A stretch of 41,104 nt of DNA from Candidatus Melainabacteria bacterium (GCA_013286945.1 JABDET010000005.1:1-41104), one strand, 5' to 3'; positions 7,134-33,204 are shown, counted from the first letter of the stretch. A program made the numbers and translations. The notes: a model not told the origin generated them from the sequence alone.

Positions 7134-8063
7134 ATGTCTCGGGTCGGCTTAATTGATGTAGGAACCAATACACTAAGACTTATAATCGGGGAACCTGGTG
7201 AAAACGGGGTTCCCCGATTTCTTTATCATGAAGTTTTAGCCACTCGGCTTGGGGAAGGATTAAGCCAGCGCAACGAACTGAGTCCTGAAGCGATCGAGAG
7301 AACCATCGATGGCTTAAGACGCTTGAAAGCAAAGGCGAACAGCTACGGGGTCAAGCTTGTTGAGGCCTATGCCACGGCATGGGCGCGATTGGCAACCAAC
7401 ACGGATGAAGTTCTCTCGAGCGTTGCAAAGCTCGACCTTCCCATCTGGATCCTAACCGAGGAAGAAGAAGCCATGATGGCCGTGGAATCGGTGAAGCTCT
7501 TGGCGATCGGAACGGAAAATTTTTGGGTGGTTGACATGGGTGGAGGATCGACCCAAATCGTTCGAGTGATTAACGGAGAGGGAGAATACATTCGAAGCGT
7601 TCCGTTCGGCGCGGTGAATTTTACCGAAAAGTATCTTCTCCATGATCCTCCTGAGGTCGATCGAACCAAGGCAGAAGAAGAAGTAAAAAAGCTCTTGGCT
7701 TTACAACGTCTCGGAGAGACCGGCGAACAGAGGGCACGTGTCGTGGCACTTGGCGGGACCGTTGCGACGCTTGGAGCATTGAAAGTGGGGATTGCTCCAG
7801 AAGAGCCAAGTTTCTTCGAAAAAGTCCAGGGGTTATCCCTTGAACAGAGCTGGATAAAAAGCGAGATCGATGTTCTTTTTCATCTGTCGCTTGCTGAACG
7901 AAAAAAACTTGCTGGAATGGAACCCGAACGAGCGGACATTCTTCCAGGTGGCGCAATCCTTCTTCATGGATTTCTTTCGGAAATTAATGCGTCTACAGTC
8001 TTCATTTGCTTATATTCGTTTATCCATGGGTTGTTGGCCAAGAGAGTGGAAGCGCTAGAATAG
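7134..8063 (+). CDS. Exopolyphosphatase / pppGpp phosphatase (Ppx/GppA family)
   Basis: 309 residues of the actin-like ATPase fold. The phosphate-1 motif is GLIDVGTNTLRLIIGE (about residues 4-19), the phosphate-2 motif VVDMGGGSTQIV (about 131-142), and an adenosine-type segment GGTVATLGAL follows. Family members release phosphate from polyphosphate or convert pppGpp to ppGpp. The protein has only the two-domain core, with no extra HD domain, so it is a short Ppx2-like form. Start ATG 7134 follows AAGGA carried by the palindromic repeat. Which substrate is preferred cannot be read from the sequence. Confidence 0.92.
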   Translation: MSRVGLIDVGTNTLRLIIGEPGENGVPRFLYHEVLATRLGEGLSQRNELSPEAIERTIDGLRRLKAKANSYGVKLVEAYATAWARLATNTDEVLSSVAKLDLPIWILTEEEEAMMAVESVKLLAIGTENFWVVDMGGGSTQIVRVINGEGEYIRSVPFGAVNFTEKYLLHDPPEVDRTKAEEEVKKLLALQRLGETGEQRARVVALGGTVATLGALKVGIAPEEPSFFEKVQGLSLEQSWIKSEIDVLFHLSLAERKKLAGMEPERADILPGGAILLHGFLSEINASTVFICLYSFIHGLLAKRVEALE

Positions 8064-23051: not shown

Positions 23052-23143
23052 AGAGTAACTATTCAGGGGCTGACACTTTCAATAAACACTCGGTGGGTGG
23101 TTATCCGCACTCGCGACCCCTACAGGGCCAAGGGTGAAAAGGA

Positions 23144-23195
23144 ATCCAGCGGTTTATCGCATCGTGCGACCGCTGGATGAATTCATCCTGAATTC
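23144..23195 (+). repeat. Two-hairpin covarying element, copy 1
   Basis: Hairpin 1 is ATCCAGCGGT/ACCGCTGGAT (10 bp), with an inner CGCA/TGCG stem capped by TCG and a TTAT bulge. Hairpin 2 is GAATTC/GAATTC around ATCCT. GGAATCC/GGATTCC (23141-23147, 23205-23211) offer an alternative enclosing stem. It sits in the 258-base gap before the 23310 gene; the rest of that gap shows nothing clear except a possible TTGTTT-N18-TATGAT promoter (23262-23291). Confidence 0.7.
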
Positions 23196-23309
23196 ACGAA
23201 TAAAGGATTCCAAACCGGGCAAGTATAACAAAACGGCTACAATCTTTTAACATTTCTGATCTTGTTTCTATGCATCCGGATCGTGTATGATGATTCTAGG
23301 AGGCTAAAC

Positions 23310-24290
23310 GTGAAGAACTTTGGGGATGTCCGGTCACTCCTTTATCGGTACAGCAAGCTCACGTCCGAAACCAACCATGGGAAGGACAATCACGTTTCCT
23401 TTGAAAACCTGGTGCCTCCACTTTATAAGCGCCACTTGATTTCTCCCCACTGGCACTGCTATCGAACGGTCAAGTACATCATGGAGGAAGTCCAAGAGAA
23501 CCGACTCCCTGAAGTGGATGCCCATGAGGCCCTTTCGATCCTGAGTAAGGCTGTGAAAGCAGAGCTGCAGCTTATCACGGAGCAGCTTCGAACTTGGCGG
23601 AGTCAAAACCGATTTCCGAGAGTTCTGCATTTGCTCGGCGTTGTTTGCACAGAAATGATTGAAGCCTTGCATTTGTTTGGAAGCACACTGCATGACATGA
23701 ATAAGAGCCAAAACCAAAAAGCTTTACTTGAGTTCAAGCAAATCATCGAGGATCACGAATCACTGCGTGAGGAGTTAGTTTCTTATAATGAAGCGCGTGG
23801 ATGGTACCTTTTGGAGCGATTCCCTGGCCCATTCTCTCCCATGGTTTCTGTTTTGGGCTGGGGAATGGTCATGCACATTTCAGGGTCTTTTGAAGAGAAG
23901 CGTTTTCGCCACTTGTTGGCCATGGCCAACCAAGAATTCGAGAGGACGGTTCAAAAGTATGAGCTCGAATTTTCGGCTACCAACTTTTGGCAAGAGGCTA
24001 AACAGGAAGCCAGAACAGCGTATGGACTGATTTACGCTTCATTCTTTTCAGCGCTGAACGTGAACGGGACCGTGGATCCCTTGATTGTACGAGGGGCCTT
24101 GGCGATGTTGGCCCATGCGCTTAGCCGGCTTAATGCGTGCATTTTGAATTCCCATCCAGGAGACGCAAACAAGGGCTCAATGTTTTCAGCATCGACGCAA
24201 ACCCTCGTGGGAAAAAATACAATTCCCCGTCATCTCTTGGTCATGAACCAAGCTTTTTACCCAACCTCATCCGGCATTTCCTCGAATTAG
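23310..24290 (+). CDS. Hypothetical protein, helical, 326 residues
   Basis: I do not recognise this protein. GTG 23310 is chosen because AGGAGG lies 6 bases upstream. The product begins VKNFGDVRSLLYRYSKLTSE and is mostly helical and soluble. It has SILSKAVKAELQLITEQLRTW and several His/Trp/Tyr-rich helices, a more hydrophobic segment GALAMLAHALSRLNACILNS near 265, and a Ser/Thr-rich end. No signal peptide or catalytic motif is visible. It stands alone between two repeat-bearing spacers. A weak promoter (23262-23291) lies so close that its transcript would start about at the ribosome site, so the true promoter may be further up. Confidence 0.7.
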   Translation: MKNFGDVRSLLYRYSKLTSETNHGKDNHVSFENLVPPLYKRHLISPHWHCYRTVKYIMEEVQENRLPEVDAHEALSILSKAVKAELQLITEQLRTWRSQNRFPRVLHLLGVVCTEMIEALHLFGSTLHDMNKSQNQKALLEFKQIIEDHESLREELVSYNEARGWYLLERFPGPFSPMVSVLGWGMVMHISGSFEEKRFRHLLAMANQEFERTVQKYELEFSATNFWQEAKQEARTAYGLIYASFFSALNVNGTVDPLIVRGALAMLAHALSRLNACILNSHPGDANKGSMFSASTQTLVGKNTIPRHLLVMNQAFYPTSSGISSN

Positions 24291-24318: not shown

Positions 24319-24484
24319 CAATTTCTAAGAGTCGCGAGCGGGAGTCCGCCAAAAGGCTCCCCATGCCCCCGCGGTTTTTCACGTCGTGTGACCGCGGGAT
24401 GAATTCGTCCTGAATTCACATCCGTGGCGCTTGAACCGCAATACCGCTTCCTCAGGGACCCCCGCTCGCTCCCCATAGAAATTG
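24319..24484. repeat. Long imperfect inverted repeat enclosing element copy 2
   Basis: Arms of 29 bases (24319-24347 and 24456-24484) share CAATTTCTA, GCGAGCGGG and GTCC in mirrored order with a few mismatches. The loop of about 108 bases carries the two-hairpin element at 24368-24417. It lies just after the 23310 gene and may end its transcript. Confidence 0.65.
24368..24417 (+). repeat. Two-hairpin covarying element, copy 2
   Basis: Hairpin 1 is CCCGCGGT/ACCGCGGG, with inner CACG/TGTG (one G-T wobble) capped by TCG and a TTTT bulge. Hairpin 2 is GAATTC/GAATTC around GTCCT. Same order and spacing as copies 1 and 3. Confidence 0.7.
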
Positions 24485-24608: not shown

Positions 24609-24685
24609 GTTTAGAACTTGTCTATCTATTGTTTACATTGTTTACTTGATTACGCTTGGAGCCATCCGTTCTTCTGTGCTATGAT
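24609..24685 (+). promoter_or_regulatory. Shared upstream box and promoter of the 24722 gene
   Basis: A 39-bp T-rich box (24609-24647) with two TTGTTTAC units 9 bases apart lies 32 bases before TATGAT (24680-24685); TTGGAG (24656-24661) is a possible -35 with 18-base spacing. The box aligns without gaps to 26460-26498 at 25 of 39 positions. The spacer from 24485 to 24608 shows nothing recognisable beyond GGTAACA near 24551. Confidence 0.55.
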
Positions 24686-24721
24686 CTATGTGAACAGATA
24701 TACTTGAGGAGGAAACGTGAT

Positions 24722-26038
24722 ATGTCAGCTAATGCGAATCATCAAGCGAATCCAGTGCCGAAGGTGCAGCCGCCACCTAAGCCGAAGGAATCACCAGCAC
24801 CACAACAAAGCAAAACTCAGGTAGCAAGTCATTCATCGAGTCAGTTGCCAAACCATGACAATGCCAAGCTTAGCCCGCTTGCAGCAAAAGATGTGGCTAG
24901 CCACCCAGCGGTTAACAAGAATGTGGCTCATCCAGTAAGCTCCAGTCATGCAGCATCCCACCCAAGCTCGAATGTCCATCCAGTGAGCTCAAATTCACAT
25001 CCAGCAAGCTTAGCTCACCAAGTAGCAACGGATACTTCTCACAGAGGCAACCAAAACGCAGCGGGGCTCAATTCGAGTACCAAAGCCGCTTCGAATTCAG
25101 CTCAAGTAAAATCTGGGAGTTCGCAAGCTTCGAGTCCCCTCCACGACAATTCAGTTTTGAGTTCAGGGAAGGCTGGAAGTCCAGCGGCTTCAAGCCCAGT
25201 CCAGGCTAACTCGGTGAGTAAAGACGCCTCGAGCCCCAATGCGGCCTCGAACTCTGCGAACACCAACGGTGCAGCGAATGCTAATGCGAATTCCAATGCC
25301 AACCCAAATCCGAAGATTGAGAAATTGAAAAAAGATGTCGACTCCTTTGTTAGTGACGCTAAAGACGCCATCACTCAAAATAAACTCACTGACCCTCCCA
25401 CACAAAAAAAGCTTGTGGGGGACCTTGGAGCGATCCTGAGCGACGTTGCAGGGTTGGCTTCCGATCAAAAAGGGAGCGATGCGTCTAGCCAGCCGGGCTC
25501 AGCGAGTCAGGCTGCGGGTGCTTCTTCCAATCCGAGTGCCGGTAATTCCGGAACGAACACGGCGGCACCCTCCGCTTCCCCGGCAGATTCCGGAGCGGCG
25601 GCTTCCAATTCATCGGCAGCTCCGGCGGGAAGTGCGTCCGCGGGCAGCGGAAGTGGCGCTCCATCTGCAGCAGGCAACGGACAAGCAACACCGGCTCCAC
25701 AAGATGGCGCAAGTTCCAGTCCGCTCATGAAGCTCATAACTGATATCATGAAAGCACTGTTTGCTTTGATGACCGGAAACGCAAGTGCCTTGTCAGGCAT
25801 TCTGCCACAGCTCATGACGGATTTTCAAAATTACATGCAAAGCCAGGGTTCATCTGCTCAGGGGCAAGGTGCGAATCCGAGTGCAACTCCAGGGCAAAGT
25901 AACCCGACGAGTGGCGGAACAGCTGCCGCAGGCAGTGGGGCTCCGACAGTCGCACCCGGGAGTCAAGTCGCGCCCACTGGGTCAGCGACTCCGAGCACCC
26001 AGGCTACACCGACCCAGTATGCCTTAAGTAAGAACTAG
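24722..26038 (+). CDS. Low-complexity Ser/Ala/Asn/Pro-rich protein, 438 residues
   Basis: ATG 24722 follows GAGGAGG by 9 bases. There is no signal peptide and no membrane helix. Residues 1-195 are disordered and rich in Ser, His, Pro, Asn and Ala (ASHPSSNVHPVSSNSHPAS). A helical segment (about 195-255, KIEKLKKDVDSFVSDAKDAI then LVGDLGAILSDVAGLA) and a second one (about 335-380, LMKLITDIMKALFALMTGNA) are separated by more Ser/Ala/Gly sequence. The C-terminus is Pro/Thr/Ser-rich. I do not know its function. It shares architecture, a TGNAS segment and a promoter box with the 26574 gene. Surface, matrix or non-Sec-secreted roles are guesses. Confidence 0.8.
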   Translation: MSANANHQANPVPKVQPPPKPKESPAPQQSKTQVASHSSSQLPNHDNAKLSPLAAKDVASHPAVNKNVAHPVSSSHAASHPSSNVHPVSSNSHPASLAHQVATDTSHRGNQNAAGLNSSTKAASNSAQVKSGSSQASSPLHDNSVLSSGKAGSPAASSPVQANSVSKDASSPNAASNSANTNGAANANANSNANPNPKIEKLKKDVDSFVSDAKDAITQNKLTDPPTQKKLVGDLGAILSDVAGLASDQKGSDASSQPGSASQAAGASSNPSAGNSGTNTAAPSASPADSGAAASNSSAAPAGSASAGSGSGAPSAAGNGQATPAPQDGASSSPLMKLITDIMKALFALMTGNASALSGILPQLMTDFQNYMQSQGSSAQGQGANPSATPGQSNPTSGGTAAAGSGAPTVAPGSQVAPTGSATPSTQATPTQYALSKN

Positions 26039-26064
26039 AGTAAATAGCCTTTACACTGATGAGT

Positions 26065-26094
26065 GCAATCAACGCCCGAAAGGGCGTTGATTGC
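26065..26094 (+). terminator. Strong hairpin terminator after the 24722 gene
   Basis: A perfect 13-bp stem (26065-26077 with 26082-26094) is capped by GAAA and followed by TTAATTT. Confidence 0.75.
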
Positions 26095-26110
26095 TTAATT
26101 TCAGGTCGTA

Positions 26111-26331
26111 GGTTTCCGTGACAGGACGTCTTAACGGAAACCGGAGATACTGCGAGGACACGATGTCCGAGCAGTGCTGAAATCATCCAGCGGTCAGTGG
26201 CGTCACGGATGACGACCTCCGGCGGCCACAGGATGTAATCGGCCGCGGACACGGATGTGACAAATCGCTGGATTCCTGAATTTACGGACAAATTCATCCC
26301 GCAGTCACAAGGATGTGATAAACTGCGGGAT
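26111..26331. repeat. Array of hairpins between the two low-complexity genes
   Basis: Successive hairpins include GGTTTCCGT/ACGGAAACC (26111-26142), ACTGC/GCAGT with inner GGACA/TGTCC (about 26149-26175), CGTCA/TGACG (about 26201-26214), GCGGCC/GGCCGC (26222-26246), and element copy 3. Apical sequences repeat a theme of CA, then GGATGT or GATGTG. ATCCAGCG (from about 26185) and CGCTGGAT (about 26266-26273) can also enclose several of them. Confidence 0.55.
26278..26331 (-). repeat. Two-hairpin covarying element, copy 3
   Basis: Read on the minus strand: hairpin 1 ATCCCGCAGT/ACTGCGGGAT (10 bp), inner CACA/TGTG capped by TCCT with a TTAT bulge, then hairpin 2 GAATTT/AAATTC. Every stem differs from copies 1 and 2 yet still pairs. 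Confidence 0.7.
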
Positions 26332-26459
26332 ACCGCTAAAATAGCCCAATTCACCAGCCGTCACCAGCCAATATGCAAGTTCACACCATCGTCACAGCGG
26401 CAACATTCTGGAAACAAACCGCGCTCCTTAACCACTTGGACATACTTTGGTAACACTTT

Positions 26460-26535
26460 ATTTAAACTTTGTTTATCTTCGCTACAGAATGTTTACTCTT
26501 TTGCTCTAGGCCAGGGGCTTGTCTGACGTGATAAT
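26460..26535 (+). promoter_or_regulatory. Shared upstream box and promoter of the 26574 gene
   Basis: The 39-bp box 26460-26498 (ending GAATGTTTACTC) matches that before the 24722 gene. It lies 31 bases before GATAAT (26530-26535). The -10 to start distance is 38 bases, against 36 in the other gene. No good -35 is visible, which fits activator dependence. Confidence 0.5.
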
Positions 26536-26573
26536 CGTGGTAGAAGACCATTCAGTAAGGAGGAGATTTAAAA

Positions 26574-28610
26574 ATGAGTCATCATAGCGACAATTCAGCA
26601 ATCATCGGGGCATTGCACCAAGCCTGGAATGCCGACAATCAGAAGGATGGGGTAATCCAGCAGTTGCAAACGCAAAACAGTGCGCTGCAGGCGCAAAACA
26701 AAACGCTGTCAGATCAAGCAAGTGCAGATCACGATATGCTTGTGCGGGATGATCAGATACTCGCCGATCGTGGAATTAAGGATGGTTCGTTCTTGAGTAA
26801 TTTGTCACAAGCCGCCACAGCCCCAGCGGGAAGTGCAGCCAATCAAGATACCAGCAAGTCGAGTCCAAACACTTCAGCTAATGCAGACAACAGTCAAAAT
26901 AATTCGGCGAATCCGAACAATTCAGCGAATCCGAGCGGTTCCAACGCTTCGGCTGCAAGCGCAAGCCATTCAGCTGGGTGCTCTTGCTGTCACGGCCACG
27001 AGGTAGAAAACGACAATGACGCGGATGACGCTCCTAAGAGTAATCCAAGCAATGTTTCTACTAAAGACGCCTTGAACGCAATGGCAGACGTCACGAATGC
27101 CGTTAACAATAATACCCCTGAAAAACTTGCCTCAGCTTTTGAGAAACTGAATACGGCCTTGGGAAATCCGGTTCTCCCAGATGGGAATGCAATGAGTTTT
27201 GACCAAGCAAGCGCCAATCTTGAACAGGCTCTAGCCTCTGGGGATTCGTCAAAATATCCTCAAGCTCTCGCAGATTTTCAGTTGGCTGCCATGCCAAACG
27301 GCAGTGTGACGGTTCCGCCCACTCCGGTTACTCCGCCTGGCCCGACTCCGAGCCCTGTTGGCCTAGGTGGCACCTTCTTCGGTGACTTGGGAAAATTATT
27401 CTCCGATATGATTGCTGACTTACAGAGCCCAAACCCAGATTTCAGCAATTTGAGTTCGGATTTTCAAAGCCTCATGACCGATTTAGGAGGAGGCCCCATC
27501 TATGCAAATCAGGGAAGCGCGGCCTCTCCGACGAATCAGGTTGCATCGAATCAGGGAAGCGCAGCCTCTCCGACGAATCAAGTCGCATCGAATCAGGGGA
27601 GCTCAGCTTCTCCAGCCAGTGCTGCGAATTCAAGTTCTATCAGTCTGGATCCTACTTCTTTGAGTGCACTTAACCAACTGAGTAGCGAAATCCAAGCATT
27701 GGTTACAGCATTAACGGGAAATGCATCGAGCACCAGTGCAACCAACTCTAGCGCCAACAACGCCTTGAACTCGATATTTGGAAATAGCAGCACTCCAGCT
27801 CTCGCTGACAATAGTACTCTCAACGGTTTATTGAGCAGCCTTGGAATTCCGTCCTCGACTCAGGGGAACAACAGCTCGAGCGCCCTCTCCAGTGATCCGG
27901 TTATTCAGTCCCTCATGTCCGGTACCGGCTTTTTTGGAGCAAGTAACTCGAGCTCGAGCTTGCAAAACTGGATGAGCAGCTTTTTGGGAACCGGAACAAG
28001 TGGTTTGACGAGCCCCGCAAGTTCGGCCGGTTCAACGGTGTCAGCCGGCGGTGGGATTACAATTAGTGGATTACCGGCGCTTGCCCCCGGCCAAAGCTAC
28101 ACGATTACGATAGCCGAGAATGGCGCCCCAGCGGTAACCGTTGCACAACCAACTGCACCTGTTAGCGCGCCAATCGCTTCGAATCCGCCTGGAACCGTCG
28201 TGTCTCAACCGATTCAGTATCCAGTCGTAAATCCCCCGGGAATGACAACGGGACCCGCCATCGGCGCTCCAATGCCAACAACCGTAGCGACAGGGCCGTC
28301 AGTTCCTCCAGTCGGAGTAAGCTATCCTGGCGGCGGACCTGTTAGGCCAACCATGCCTCCCGTCGGAGTTACGAGACCTGGTATTAACCCGGTGGCCTCA
28401 CTTCCTCCTTCTCGTCCGTGGCAACCGATTACAACCAGTCCCGGCGTTATAGGCATAACGCGACCAATCTTGTACGGGCCAGGACAACAAGGACCAGGAA
28501 CCATGTATATCCCTGGGGTAACCACACAGGCCGATTTAACAGCCAACTTGAATCAACAACTGTCTGGCGTCCAAGGCGTGACCTTAAACAAGACGACCAC
28601 CACCGTCTAA
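26574..28610 (+). CDS. Low-complexity Ser/Asn/Ala/Pro-rich protein, 678 residues, coiled-coil N-terminus
   Basis: AAGGAGG lies 10 bases before the start. No signal peptide is visible. Residues 20-55 form a heptad-like helix (VIQQLQTQNSALQAQNKTL), followed by a Ser/Asn repeat zone, a Cys/His cluster (C136, C138, C139, H140, H142 in GCSCCHGHE) and a helical domain at about 160-240. A short helical segment (DLGKLFSDMIADLQSP) and a 14-residue repeat (about 312-345) come next. Ser/Asn-rich helices with LVTALTGNASS follow, and then a Pro/Gly/Val-rich C-terminal third (PPVGVSYPGGGPVRPTMPPV). No homologue comes to mind. It is the larger partner of the 24722 gene and ends at a strong terminator. Confidence 0.8.
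   Translation: MSHHSDNSAIIGALHQAWNADNQKDGVIQQLQTQNSALQAQNKTLSDQASADHDMLVRDDQILADRGIKDGSFLSNLSQAATAPAGSAANQDTSKSSPNTSANADNSQNNSANPNNSANPSGSNASAASASHSAGCSCCHGHEVENDNDADDAPKSNPSNVSTKDALNAMADVTNAVNNNTPEKLASAFEKLNTALGNPVLPDGNAMSFDQASANLEQALASGDSSKYPQALADFQLAAMPNGSVTVPPTPVTPPGPTPSPVGLGGTFFGDLGKLFSDMIADLQSPNPDFSNLSSDFQSLMTDLGGGPIYANQGSAASPTNQVASNQGSAASPTNQVASNQGSSASPASAANSSSISLDPTSLSALNQLSSEIQALVTALTGNASSTSATNSSANNALNSIFGNSSTPALADNSTLNGLLSSLGIPSSTQGNNSSSALSSDPVIQSLMSGTGFFGASNSSSSLQNWMSSFLGTGTSGLTSPASSAGSTVSAGGGITISGLPALAPGQSYTITIAENGAPAVTVAQPTAPVSAPIASNPPGTVVSQPIQYPVVNPPGMTTGPAIGAPMPTTVATGPSVPPVGVSYPGGGPVRPTMPPVGVTRPGINPVASLPPSRPWQPITTSPGVIGITRPILYGPGQQGPGTMYIPGVTTQADLTANLNQQLSGVQGVTLNKTTTTV
27507..27616 (+). 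repeat. 42-bp tandem repeat inside the 26574 gene
   Basis: Two nearly identical 42-bp units (27507-27548, 27549-27590) and a partial third encode NQGSAASPTNQVAS repeats. Such in-frame repeats can change length by slippage. Confidence 0.8.
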
Positions 28611-28769: not shown

Positions 28770-29108
28770 TTGCCGATTTACGAGTACGAGTGTAATAAAT
28801 GCCACGAATTTTTCGAGTTGCTTCAATCAATACACGATTCAACACTCCCCCAGTGCCCGAAGTGTGGTGGAAAGGTGCGACGGCTTATTTCTCGTCCAAG
28901 CATTCTGTTTAAGGGATCGGGATTTCATGTCACCGATTACTCGCGCTCTTCGAGCGGTAGCTCCACTTCAAAGACGGAAGAGAATGCATCTCCGAAGACG
29001 GCGAAGAAAGAAACCACCACATCGGAGTCCAAGTCGTCGGAGTCCAAACCCGCTGAGTCTAAACCTTCTGAGTCCAAACCGAAATCCTCCGATTCTTCCA
29101 AACCATAG
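28770..29108 (+). CDS. FmdB-type zinc-ribbon protein with Ser/Lys/Glu tail
   Basis: 112 residues from TTG 28770, with GAGGTG 7 bases upstream. The N-terminus MPIYEYECNKCHEFFELLQ and then CPKCGGKVRRLISRPS is the FmdB/CxxC regulatory zinc ribbon, with C8, C11 and a second CxxC near 33-36. GSGFHVTDY is also typical of the family. The last 50 residues are a low-complexity tail repeating SESKPAESKPSESKP. Such proteins are thought to act as small regulatory or assembly factors, but the role is not known. It probably shares expression with the next zinc-ribbon gene. Confidence 0.88.
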   Translation: MPIYEYECNKCHEFFELLQSIHDSTLPQCPKCGGKVRRLISRPSILFKGSGFHVTDYSRSSSGSSTSKTEENASPKTAKKETTTSESKSSESKPAESKPSESKPKSSDSSKP

Positions 29109-29213
29109 GTTTTTCCCATCGTCCGAAAGAACGTGATCGAAAGAAGGAAGACCTTGATAAAAGCCGAACATAAAACCCAAATTTTTTACCAATTAGCCTA
29201 AAGGGGGAAATTC

Positions 29214-29519
29214 ATGGAATTCCAAGACAAAACCATTGCTTGCAAGGAGTGCGGACAAGACTTTGTGTTCACTTCGGGTGAACAGTCCTTTTATTCGCAG
29301 AAGGGATTTGAGAATGAGCCGGCCCGCTGCCCAGACTGTCGGAATCAGCGCAAGCAGCAATTCCGAAAGAGCAACGGAGGGAGTCGAGGTAAGAAAGAAT
29401 TGTTTGACGATGTTTGTGATTCTTGCCAAAAACCGACCCAGGTTCCATTTCAGAGAACTGGCACCAAACCGGTTTACTGCCGAGATTGTTTTGATCGCGT
29501 AAACGCAAAGGCGTTTTAG
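29214..29519 (+). CDS. Double zinc-ribbon protein (zf-trcl plus CxxC-x17-CxxC)
   Basis: 101 residues. The first half, DKTIACKECGQDFVFTSGEQ then ARCPDCRNQRK, is the probable zinc-ribbon domain found in many small bacterial proteins. The second half has two CxxC pairs exactly 17 residues apart (CDSC and CRDC, with QVPFQRTGTKPVY between), the CxxC-x17-CxxC domain. Four CxxC pairs suggest two bound zinc ions. AAGGGGG lies upstream of the start. Function unknown; nucleic-acid binding is possible. Confidence 0.88.
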   Translation: MEFQDKTIACKECGQDFVFTSGEQSFYSQKGFENEPARCPDCRNQRKQQFRKSNGGSRGKKELFDDVCDSCQKPTQVPFQRTGTKPVYCRDCFDRVNAKAF

Positions 29520-29604
29520 TTTAATAAACCCCATCCCAGAGCCATTTGCTTCAACATCCGCCATCTCGTGGAAAAAATTTCTTTGCAAAAATCTGACAGA
29601 TTGC

Positions 29605-29633
29605 TTGCATTTTTTTTCGAAAGATGTTAAAAT
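29605..29633 (+). promoter_or_regulatory. Promoter of the 29705 micro-ORF / small RNA
   Basis: TTGCAT (29605-29610), 17-base spacer starting with seven T, TAAAAT (29628-29633). Transcription should begin near 29640. The leader contains a GTTCTGC/GCAGAAC hairpin (about 29648-29669). Confidence 0.65.
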
Positions 29634-29704
29634 ACAACTATCAAATTGGTTCTGCGCTAAATGCAGAACACGAAGGTAAGCAGATTACGAAAGGTGGTGA
29701 CGGG

Positions 29705-29749
29705 ATGGCAGCCAAGAAGGCCAAGAAATCAAAGAAAAAGAAAAAGTAA
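29705..29749 (+). CDS. 14-residue lysine-rich peptide
   Basis: A micro-ORF encodes MAAKKAKKSKKKKK: nine Lys, or ten counting the last, no acidic residue. AAAGGTGGTGA ends 4 bases before its ATG, an extended match to the usual ribosome-binding region. It has its own promoter (29605-29633) and terminator (29773-29803), so the transcript of about 160 bases carries nothing else. It may be a nucleic-acid-binding peptide like the tail of bacterial histone-like proteins, or the ORF may be a translated part of a small RNA. Nothing else coding is seen between 29520 and 29857. Confidence 0.55.
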   Translation: MAAKKAKKSKKKKK

Positions 29750-29772
29750 GAAACTTTTTGGTGCCCCCTCGT

Positions 29773-29803
29773 ACCCAAGGTCCATGAAGGCCTTGGGTTT
29801 TTA
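29773..29803 (+). terminator. Intrinsic terminator after the 29705 micro-ORF
   Basis: ACCCAAGG and CCTTGGGT pair, with CC/GG inside, around a short loop, followed by TTTTTA. Confidence 0.75.
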
Positions 29804-29857
29804 GTTTGGTCATGTTTAGGTTTTGAGGATTCTGGAGATAATGAATTGGAGACAACC

Positions 29858-30256
29858 ATGCTTGATACGATATCTTTGAAGATGCCTGCTAAGGCACAAA
29901 ATGCTCTTGCGGTTCGACTTCTCGTGGCTGGCCTAGCCAACTTGAATCACTTCGATTCTGAGGAAATTGAAGACATGAAGCTTGCGGTGAGCGAGGCATG
30001 CACTTGCATCAGTGATGCGGAGCACCTTGTTCAAATGAGTTTTCTCTTGGAAGAGCAAAAAATGATCATCGAAATTCAAGGAAGTCACCCCTCAAAAAGA
30101 CCCATGTTAGAATTTAATGACGCCGCGTTAGAAGGAATTGGATTTCTCCTCATGAAAAATCTTATGGATTCTATGGAGATTCATAGCGGAGACCAAGGGA
30201 CATTTATTCGGTTGGTGAAAAACCAAAAGAGTGCTGTTCCGGTGAAAACACAGTGA
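29858..30256 (+). CDS. RsbW-like anti-sigma/ATPase-fold protein, degenerate N-box
   Basis: 132 residues from ATG 29858, with GGAG 6 bases upstream. It has the small HATPase fold of anti-sigma factors: an early strand and helix (ALAVRLLVAGLANLNHFDSE), the N-box helix EDMKLAVSEACTC (38-50) and the late GIGFLLMKNLMDSMEI (G2-like) segment. In active RsbW/SpoIIAB kinases the N-box ends with an Asn that binds Mg2+; here it is C50. The DxGxG G1-box is not visible either. It may bind a partner without phosphorylating it. It overlaps the following lipoprotein gene by 4 bases. Confidence 0.78.
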   Translation: MLDTISLKMPAKAQNALAVRLLVAGLANLNHFDSEEIEDMKLAVSEACTCISDAEHLVQMSFLLEEQKMIIEIQGSHPSKRPMLEFNDAALEGIGFLLMKNLMDSMEIHSGDQGTFIRLVKNQKSAVPVKTQ

Positions 30257-30711
30257 CACGATATCCCTGGCTTGTTCTAATATTATTGCCTCTTATTTTT
30301 TTAACCAGTTGCAGCTCTCACTCATCTTCTGACGAACCCACTCTTTCTCAAAGTCCGTCCATTGCTTCAAGCAATCAACCCGTTTCGGAATCGGACCTGG
30401 GTGTACCACTTTATCCGAATGCCGCCGTTGACCAAAATCAGAGTTTCGGATTTCAAGGAAACAGCCAGAGCGACCAACACGTGAAAACCGCTTCGGCTTC
30501 TTTGACCACGACCGACTCGGTCGATCAAGTGAAATCGTTCTATAAGGAAAAGCTAGGGGACAGTGCTCGGATAGCAGAGCATAAGTCGCCTGGGGGAAAA
30601 TTGGTCGACATATTGGCCATCCGAGATGACAAACAGGTCCGAATTCAAATTGCACCCCAAGCCAATGGCATCGGCTCCATTATTGTTATCCTGACCCAAG
30701 CCCATCAGTAA
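30253..30711 (+). CDS. Lipoprotein of unknown function
   Basis: 152 residues from GTG 30253, overlapping the upstream stop by 4 bases. A lipoprotein signal peptide ends in the lipobox FLTSC (cysteine 20), followed by a Ser/Pro-rich linker. A small alpha/beta domain comes next (VKTASASLTTTDSVDQVKSF, then YKEKLGDSARI and KQVRIQIAPQANGIGSIIVI). The domain resembles short periplasmic folds that end in paired strands, but I cannot name it. Coupling to an RsbW-like gene hints at envelope stress signalling; that is speculation. Confidence 0.82.
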   Translation: MTRYPWLVLILLPLIFLTSCSSHSSSDEPTLSQSPSIASSNQPVSESDLGVPLYPNAAVDQNQSFGFQGNSQSDQHVKTASASLTTTDSVDQVKSFYKEKLGDSARIAEHKSPGGKLVDILAIRDDKQVRIQIAPQANGIGSIIVILTQAHQ

Positions 30712-30780
30712 GGGACAAGGATTTTTCCTCCTCACGCAGCGCTGGTTGAAGGAAAACCAGAATCCTGAGTGGTAGTTCGA

Positions 30781-30815
30781 GAAATCATTCCTCATGAAAA
30801 GGAAAATTTCTTTTT
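30781..30815 (+). terminator. Possible AT-rich terminator after the lipoprotein gene
   Basis: GAAAT/ATTTC and TTCC/GGAA pair and TTTTT follows. The stem is weak, so this is tentative. The same gap holds a CTGGTT/AACCAG hairpin near 30748-30768. Confidence 0.4.
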
Positions 30816-30865
30816 CGATCATCTCGAGGTGCTGGTTGAGGAATTAGCCTAAAGGATGTGCAACC

Positions 30866-31246
30866 ATGAAAAGATTTCTGTTTGGACTGCTTATTACTGC
30901 CACTTTTTGTTTTCTCGCCCGAGTCTTTGCGGGTGAACCAGGGAGCGCTTCAGATCCTCTGGTGACCAAGAGCTTTCTGGAAGAGGCCTATGGCTGGCGT
31001 GTGACCACGGTTCCTGCTGGAGAAAAACTTTCTCTGGATCTCGGCTCAGAAGCCGTATTGCGATCGGGGAAAGCCGAAGTGATCAAAGCAAAATCGGGAG
31101 GGTTGGCTGATCTAACCGAGGGTGAAGACGTGCCAGGAGGAGTTTTGGTCCCTGCGAACCACTATTTGATTTCAGCATCTTCCGACGGCAGAGGAGTGAA
31201 AGCCATCACCACGTCAGTATTTCTCACACGTGGTTTGGTCAGGTAG
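30866..31246 (+). CDS. Small secreted protein with GSxSDPLVTKSxL motif
   Basis: 126 residues. A signal peptide (MKRFLFGLLITATFCFLARV, cut near FAG) is followed by PGSASDPLVTKSFLEEAYGW. That motif recurs at the start of the mature part of small exported proteins in Firmicutes-like genomes, as far as I recall. The rest looks like a beta-rich fold (LDLGSEAVLRSGKAEVI, GLADLTEGEDVPGGVLVPAN), perhaps a cupin- or SAF-like barrel. AAAGGA lies 9 bases upstream. It lies 2 bases before the DUF5693 gene, so the two are probably co-expressed. Confidence 0.75.
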   Translation: MKRFLFGLLITATFCFLARVFAGEPGSASDPLVTKSFLEEAYGWRVTTVPAGEKLSLDLGSEAVLRSGKAEVIKAKSGGLADLTEGEDVPGGVLVPANHYLISASSDGRGVKAITTSVFLTRGLVR

Positions 31247-31248
31247 CA

Positions 31249-33204
31249 TTGAAAAAATTCCTTTTCATCCTTTTACTGATTTCCTTTGTGGCCAGTCTAT
31301 GGCCAGCCCTACTACGCCACCATCTTGAAGAAAGCAACCGTCAGGTGGAAATCACCTTGGATTATGATGGCGTTTCAGATTTGTGCGAAAGAGAAGGGCT
31401 TTCAGTGGAAACCACTCTTTCCGAATTTCAAAAGCTGGGTGTGAGCACGATTGCGCTTTCGGAGATTACCTTGGAGAAGCTGCATCAGGAAGGAAAAATC
31501 GTGTGGCTTCGAGGGGAAGACCTTCCCTTGTATGAAAAAGAAAAAAAACTTCACGACTTGTTCAAAAATATTTCTCTTCCATCGGTTGTCGTTTTGGTGA
31601 GTGACAAAAGTATCAAGCCATGGTTGTCGAAAGCCCTCGCATCGCTTTTTGGCGGTGAAGAATTCCGTGTCCAGGAATTTCCAGATGGCTTCATCATTCC
31701 AGGGAAATGGGATGATGTGACGCAGATTAGCCTTGGTTTGGATCCCGATCAAGCAAAACCACTAGCGGCTCAACATTTTCTGATTAATCCTCGGATATCC
31801 AACCGAGATGATCTCGACGAGACAAAACTGGGCTATCTTCTGGCCAACGTGCTTTCTATCCCCAATGTGAGAACCTTGATTTTCTCAGGCTTGCGAAACG
31901 AAGTTCTCGGTTTTGATCATGATGTCGGGAAAGTAGGGGAGTTTCTTCGATTGCACCAAGTTCGGTTTGGCTATGTCGAGGCTTATGAGAGCGCACGGGC
32001 TCTCAAGGGTGGAGATGAATTAGCACAAAAAATGCCCGATTCGGTGGTGAAAGTGCAGGCGTTGATCCTTCCTTCACTCACCCGTCTTGATCCTGAAAAG
32101 GCTGTGGAAACCTTTTCACTTGGGGTGAGGGAAAGAAATATTCGAATTATCTATTTTCGTCCGTTCCTGGTAAATTATGGAGGAAAAAGTGTTTTGGAAA
32201 CCAACGTCCAGTTCTTGAAAAGCTTGAGGGAAGATCTCGAAAGGAATGGTTTCGAACTCTCTCCGTCAAGACCTTTTCCTTTGTTGTCAGCAAGCCGCTT
32301 TAGCACGGTGATTGGAGTGACAGGCGTCGTGGTTGGTACTTTCCTTTTTCTCTTGACATTTCTTGACATTTCACTTCTCTGGTTTTGCATTTTCTTTCTC
32401 GGATCACTAGCCTTGGTTCCGGTTGCACACGTGATGCATCAGGAGAATTTATTGCGTAGCATCTTTGCTTTTTGGGGAGCCAATCTTTTTCCGATTTTTG
32501 GAATTGTTCTTTTTTCAGAACGGAAGCCGCTCGGTTTTTTCAACTCAGTTCTCGCGCTGCTGGGTGCAACATTGTTTACCGTGATGGGGGGATTTCTGGT
32601 ATCGAGTTTGATGACGGATAATCTAACCATGCTTGGAATTCAAACCTTCCGAGGGGTGAAGGCCATTCTTGTGGCTCCTGTCATTCTTGCTCCCTGGCTA
32701 GCTTTCGTTTATCAAAGGGGTAAGGGCTCGGCTCGGAGCTTTTCGGATTGGCTTAGGAAGTTTGTGGAACCCCTTCGAGAGCCGGTCCAGGTGTCTCACG
32801 TGGTGGCATTGTTGATTCTTTTGGTTGGGGCGGCATTCATGATCCTTCGAAGTGGAAATGCGGTTCCAGAAGGGGCTGTTCCGGAGTGGGAAAAAAGTTT
32901 TCGGGCCACACTGGACACGACGTTGGCTGCACGGCCACGATTTAAGGAATTTGTGATTGGCCATCCTTTCTATCTTTTGGCAAGCGGCCTTGGGCTTGAA
33001 AGCGTTGGGGGGGTCTTGTCACTCTTTCTGGGTGGCCTTGGCCAAGCAGACATCATGGACAGTTTTGCTCATTTGCACACACCGCTCCGACTCACCTTGC
33101 TCCGAACCGTGAATGGAATTTGGCTTGGCATTATTCTTGGGGCGTTCCTGCGATTGATTGTGGGGAGGTTGACCACTGTCAATCGGGAGGATCGGTCAAA
33201 ATGA
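31249..33204 (+). CDS. DUF5693 family membrane protein
   Basis: 651 residues from TTG 31249. One N-terminal membrane helix (FLFILLLISFVASLWPALL) is followed by an external domain of about 320 residues starting with NRQVEITLDYDGVSDLCERE, the hallmark start of DUF5693 proteins. Then come about eight membrane helices (about 350-640). In other genomes this family sits next to csaB, which pyruvylates cell-wall polymers, and it is presumed to act in envelope polysaccharide handling. Here it overlaps a sugar epimerase gene by 4 bases (ATGA), which fits that idea. No csaB is in the window. Confidence 0.85.
   Translation: MKKFLFILLLISFVASLWPALLRHHLEESNRQVEITLDYDGVSDLCEREGLSVETTLSEFQKLGVSTIALSEITLEKLHQEGKIVWLRGEDLPLYEKEKKLHDLFKNISLPSVVVLVSDKSIKPWLSKALASLFGGEEFRVQEFPDGFIIPGKWDDVTQISLGLDPDQAKPLAAQHFLINPRISNRDDLDETKLGYLLANVLSIPNVRTLIFSGLRNEVLGFDHDVGKVGEFLRLHQVRFGYVEAYESARALKGGDELAQKMPDSVVKVQALILPSLTRLDPEKAVETFSLGVRERNIRIIYFRPFLVNYGGKSVLETNVQFLKSLREDLERNGFELSPSRPFPLLSASRFSTVIGVTGVVVGTFLFLLTFLDISLLWFCIFFLGSLALVPVAHVMHQENLLRSIFAFWGANLFPIFGIVLFSERKPLGFFNSVLALLGATLFTVMGGFLVSSLMTDNLTMLGIQTFRGVKAILVAPVILAPWLAFVYQRGKGSARSFSDWLRKFVEPLREPVQVSHVVALLILLVGAAFMILRSGNAVPEGAVPEWEKSFRATLDTTLAARPRFKEFVIGHPFYLLASGLGLESVGGVLSLFLGGLGQADIMDSFAHLHTPLRLTLLRTVNGIWLGIILGAFLRLIVGRLTTVNREDRSK

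Follow-up and report, generated by a model that had tools for sequence, protein, structure and literature searches.

The window analysed here, a stretch of 41,104 nucleotides from a Candidatus Melainabacteria bacterium, carries two neighbouring genes for large proteins, P1 and P2, which the original prediction had singled out as an undescribed pair. Large disordered orphan proteins are already known as a kind, and they form a blind spot of annotation. The locus raises the question of whether P1 and P2 are real genes, whether they belong together and what role two such chains could have.

Reading frames and predicted structure

P1 is the open reading frame at 24722-26038 on the + strand (ATG at 24722, stop at 26038, 438 residues) and P2 that at 26574-28610, on the same strand (ATG at 26574, stop at 28610, 678 residues). 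Shine-Dalgarno sequences were read in front of both, GAGGAGG at 24706..24712 (+), 9 nt before the ATG of P1, and AAGGAGG at 26557..26563 (+), 10 nt before that of P2. Both frames are longer than chance allows, since, when the region was simulated 300 times under a first-order Markov model, the longest frame in any reading frame reached only 374 residues (mean 154). Codon usage was uninformative as proof of coding; the codon bias in the region is too weak to add evidence. Each gene forms a single-gene unit, as had been predicted, with no convincing gene in the 431 bp upstream of P1 or the 535 bp upstream of P2.

The composition of both products agreed with the predicted richness in Ser, Ala, Asn and Pro (P1: S 18.7, A 18.3, P 9.4, N 8.2 and G 7.8%; P2: S 15.2, A 12.2, P 9.4, G 9.1 and N 8.7%). 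Among those reading frames of the window that were ranked by their S/A/N/T/G/Q/P fraction, P1 and P2 took the top two places (0.71 and 0.69; next 0.54), and their mean local sequence entropy was 2.92 and 3.07 bits, respectively, versus 3.41-3.48 bits in three neighbours. P1 contains no Trp, and towards its N-terminus five HP dipeptides fall within a span of 35 residues, mostly in degenerate Ser-rich surroundings. The C-terminal third of P2 is Pro-rich. All three Cys residues of P2 fall within the Cys/His cluster HSAGCSCCHGH (26967..26999, +), which lies in a disordered linker and is a possible metal-binding or cross-linking site judging from its residues. A 42-nt tandem duplication, in which NQGSAASPTNQVAS occurs twice in copies that are 93% identical, occupies 27507..27590 (+) of the P2 gene.

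AlphaFold2 models gave a pLDDT below 50 for 312 of the 438 residues of P1 (71%) and 511 of the 678 residues of P2 (75%), values that partly reflect a limit of the method, as the models were made from single sequences. Most of each chain has no predicted fold, and on these models P1 and P2 would both be classed as intrinsically disordered proteins. The short helical islands that had been proposed within the disordered chains were recovered. In P1 two helical hairpins were predicted, the first at residues 197-254 (25310..25483, +; pLDDT about 91-93 over most of its length) and the second at residues 334-379 (25721..25858, +; about 88-90 over most of its length). P2 begins with a predicted coiled coil at residues 5-65 (26586..26768, +; pLDDT 83-88), followed by weaker hairpins: hairpins 1 and 2 at residues 163-196 and 206-238 (27060..27287, +; about 46-73), and hairpins 3 (residues 264-305; 27363..27488, +; about 40-52) and 4 (residues 360-401; 27651..27776, +), both predicted with low confidence. 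A Foldseek search of the PDB with the P1 model gave no match better than E 1.1; this best match, to four-helix bundles of the PsbQ and cytochrome c' type, was rejected.

In agreement with the predicted lack of a Sec signal, Kyte-Doolittle hydropathy, the only measure used here, detected no hydrophobic N-terminal stretch in P1 or P2. The best 11-residue mean near the N-terminus was -0.79 in P1 and +0.85 in P2, and the latter peak falls within the predicted helix. By this simple hydropathy measure neither protein carries the N-terminal signal peptide expected of a Sec-exported matrix protein. Since neither N-terminus is of the Sec, Tat or lipoprotein-like type, the cytoplasm is the default location.

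Upstream regions and the relation between the two genes

The original prediction tied P1 to P2 through a common TGNAS segment. The segment is indeed present in both, at residue 351 of P1 (25772, within hairpin 2) and residue 381 of P2 (27714, within hairpin 4), but we rejected it as proof of kinship, as the two proteins have six 5-mers in common where 1.8-2.8 are expected, which is near chance. A BLASTP comparison of P1 with P2 was not significant (E 0.18). Comparison of the hairpins with one another gave p<0.02 in a class-preserving shuffle for 5 of 15 comparisons, about 0.3 being expected, with hairpin boundaries that were picked by eye; none of the 6 comparisons between a hairpin and the coiled coil reached this level. 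Hairpin 3 of P2 resembles hairpin 1 of P1 (class-shuffle p 0.017) and hairpin 4 of P2 resembles hairpin 2 of P1 (p 0.010). The sequences of the P1 and P2 hairpins thus appear weakly alike, the p values being marginal.

The status of a pair seems better supported by the regions upstream of the two genes than by TGNAS. About 170 bp before P1 and before P2 could be aligned over their full length, the alignment running from a GTCACA box on the distal side as far as the -10 region, with a z of about 4.3-4.7; an alignment as good was obtained in 0 of 500 shuffles (global) and 1 of 500 (local). With the P1 upstream region as query, that of P2 came out at the top of the 4,282 windows scanned. Counting against this evidence, an unrelated stretch inside a flagellar gene, at about 7400-7690 (-) of locus L015, reached a local score of 18 against the P1 upstream region, close to the 18-19 of P2 windows. 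From the two copies we built the pattern of a composite motif, TTGTYTATCTNNNNTNNANANTGTTTACT, located at 24618..24646 (+) before P1 and 26469..26497 (+) before P2. A search of the 1.73-Mb genome sequence (67% complete) that allowed as many as 3 mismatches found no third copy, and a larger regulon under TTGTYTATCTNNNNTNNANANTGTTTACT was rejected on this result. A putative P1 promoter was read by eye at 24656..24685 (+), with TTGGAG and TATGAT 18 nt apart and a TG(N) before the -10 element; it lies under the threshold of the consensus scan. The element GATAAT at 26530..26535 (+), which aligns with the P1 -10, is the putative -10 of P2 and has no clear -35. Together, these upstream regions suggest that P1 and P2 are probably a co-regulated pair. 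The gene at 23310-24290 was considered as a third member of the promoter family and rejected, its local upstream similarity being no higher than that of shuffles.

Very strong terminators had been predicted after both genes, and this held for one of them. The hairpin after P1 (26065..26094, +; 13 bp, -25.4 kcal/mol, tail TTAATTT) has the sequence of a good intrinsic terminator. The hairpin after P2 (28627..28659; 14 bp, -28.3 kcal/mol) has an equally strong stem, but its T tail is poor on the + strand and good only on the - strand, the only strand on which the terminator scan calls it; as a terminator on the + strand it is doubtful.

Search for relatives and genomic setting

We detected no relatives of P1 or P2 in Pfam, NCBIfam, PHROGs, the PDB (by sequence), phages or plasmids, nor in a set of 58 genomes of relatives. 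Pattern scans of GTDB contigs and IMG/VR were equally negative; these require short near-exact peptide matches, so that distant relatives in other phyla may escape them. In 149 genomes of the phylum P2 had no credible relative. The weak matches at the level of the phylum (E 0.007-0.08) were attributed to chance, the frames checked resembling metallo-beta-lactamase, dehydratase, membrane-protein or antisense frames. A thaumatin-like PDB match to residues 485-520 of P2 was also judged to be chance; it consists of a single S/T/G-rich stretch of 36 residues (E 0.0019, or 0.00065 on the fragment). TrbL (E 0.26), YukD (0.045) and DivIC (0.11) were rejected as matches under the cut-off on short helices, and so was SHNi-TPR, the best Pfam match for the ordered islands, which covers 12 residues at E 0.0065, under the family cut-off. 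Three genomes searched with a profile of the hairpins yielded no additional copy. Sampling of the family amounts to just three genomes, and that of the genus to one; its two near-complete relatives in the family have neither P1 nor P2, although the block downstream is syntenic in them. By their sequences, P1 and P2 are real, lineage-restricted orphans and can be classed as taxonomically restricted genes; that they were undescribed was borne out in every library and genome set tried.

The downstream block, which runs from an FmdB-type gene to DUF5693, has the same order in the two near-complete relatives, with other genes upstream of it there. In the window it spans 28770-33204 (+) and comprises an FmdB-type zinc ribbon protein, HATPase_c_2, two small proteins, of which the first has a lipoprotein-like N-terminus, and DUF5693, an order kept in both G001 and G002. 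DUF5693 was not mentioned in the literature searched. In G001 the sequence that matches the window's UvrD-SPOR side is on another contig. Since the conserved blocks on the two sides lie on separate contigs in that genome, P1, P2 and a third orphan are placed at a junction of blocks. This third orphan in the row (23310-24290, +; about 326 residues from a GTG after AGGAGG) had no Pfam match and no relative in a 38-genome set.

A palindromic element of about 57 nt, GGAATCCAGCGGTTTATCACATCCGTGTGACCGCTGGATGAATTCATCCTGAATTCA, occurs in the window at 23141-23196 and 24365-24418 (+), with a related palindrome at 26297-26331 (loci L037-L056). Its core has 34 matches in the genome, versus 0 for a control pattern, and none in the two family relatives. 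Across 19 copies of the stem, compensatory changes were observed at 6 of 13 pairs, and 0 of 500 shuffles were as good. No Rfam match was found within the window; from its sequence the element looks like one of the REP or MITE type.

Possible roles and comparison with known systems

P1 and P2, two proteins that seem to be co-regulated, consist of ordered hairpins and coiled coils set on soluble low-complexity spacers. The reading that suits this anatomy best is a tentative one, held at less than even confidence, in which P1 and P2 would be a lineage-restricted pair acting as a multivalent scaffold. The two hairpins of P1, the approximately four of P2 and the P2 coiled coil would serve as interaction modules, or "stickers", and the Ser/Ala/Asn/Pro/Gly-rich stretches as flexible spacers. 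Made together, the two proteins may self-assemble or co-assemble into a scaffold, which would be a condensate or platform in the cytoplasm or, if the proteins leave the cell, a matrix. Against the scaffold reading, which is drawn by analogy, stand the lack of homologues in which hairpin conservation or coding constraint could be followed, the low model confidence of the P2 hairpins, the marginal p values of the hairpin comparisons and the lack of an adjoining client gene. The most far-reaching form of the proposal, a new two-protein system with a private promoter design and related hairpin stickers that builds a lineage-specific organelle-like condensate or a non-Sec-exported matrix with no known counterpart, we regard as very unlikely. 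If P1 and P2 do co-assemble, they would offer a cheap test case for lineage-specific scaffolds that arise without a folded ancestor; if they do not, they are a documented orphan pair in a thinly sampled bacterial family.

The suggestion that a secretion system be sought elsewhere in the genome was followed, and two FlhA-type export gates were found, in two separate flagellar type III export sets. One set (L015, G000:C2) has by Pfam the C-terminal part of FliF, FliK, FliM, FliO and FlhA, and the other (L017, G000:C82) a FliM/N-type protein, FlhB and FlhA; FliP/Q/R/FlhB-like frames lie between these genes in the former and FliP/Q/R-like frames in the latter. For each of the two, G002 has a separate orthologous set (L018 and L019). 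Export of P1 and P2 without Sec, for instance through a flagellar type III gate, to form an extracellular adhesive or filament-associated matrix, would fit the presence of these gates, and a polysaccharide export operon (SLBB/Poly_export, Wzz) lies downstream of P1 and P2; chains that are disordered, S/N/A/Q-rich, nearly free of Cys and devoid of a signal peptide could be type III substrates. On the DNA read, however, both genes lie outside flagellar operons and no chaperone-like gene was recognised beside them, TTGTYTATCTNNNNTNNANANTGTTTACT was found at no other site in the genome, and P1 and P2 are missing from near relatives that share these flagellar sets. Type III export is thus possible in principle from the gene content, with no tie of either gene to the gates found, and we consider export to a matrix unlikely. 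A comparable probability is given to P1 and P2 being anciently diverged members of a known surface, coat or flagellar-associated family that have drifted past recognition. Low-complexity and disordered sequence diverges fast, and the sampling of family and genus is sparse; yet the ordered islands, too, are unmatched (best Pfam E 0.0065; best PDB E 1.1 for the P1 model), the hairpin profile recovered no additional copy, and in the two relatives no counterpart precedes the syntenic block.

A somewhat more doubtful explanation is that P1 and P2 arose recently and have little or no function, being expressed but unselected. It would fit the complete lack of relatives, the low complexity and the internal tandem duplication, as well as the three successive orphan genes at the junction of blocks found on different contigs in a relative and the interspersed repeats between them. 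It does not sit well with the long frames, good Shine-Dalgarno sites, terminator and private common promoter design, which point to maintained expression, or with confident hairpins, which are unexpected of random sequence. A role as soluble stress-protection proteins of the hydrophilin type we hold to be highly improbable. Both proteins are disordered, carry no signal and exceed 6% glycine (7.8 and 9.1%), but hydrophilins are defined by a mean hydrophilicity above 1, and P1 and P2 fall short of it (mean hydropathy, GRAVY, -0.54 and -0.25, respectively), with low charge and hydrophobic hairpins. The defining features were likewise absent for the type VII and Sec readings, and all three were rejected.

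Known systems resemble P1 and P2 in part only. As in taxonomically restricted bacterial genes (PMC10003748, PMC1824705), relatives outside the lineage are lacking and the products are low-complexity and disordered. Unlike usual orphans, P1 and P2 form a pair with related promoter regions. They are also, as a general impression, long for orphan genes. FliK (PF02120) is similarly disordered and free of a signal peptide and leaves flagellated bacteria by the type III route, but Pfam finds no Flg_hook domain (PF02120) in P1 or P2, and a separate FliK is already encoded in L015 of the genome. Helical hairpins and the absence of a Sec signal recall WXG100 and type VII substrates; these are recognised by a WxG motif between two helices in about 100 residues, and neither protein matches the WXG100 family, P1 being devoid of Trp. 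In design P1 and P2 recall CsoS2, the scaffold of the alpha-carboxysome, whose N-terminal domain binds Rubisco weakly and multivalently through four helical repeats (PMC11365436). CsoS2 is a disordered, repetitive condensate scaffold with short helical repeats, and the resemblance is one of design only: no sequence relation was found, the hairpins of P1 and P2 are not repeats of nearly identical sequence, and the annotated parts of the window hold no shell-protein or Rubisco gene.
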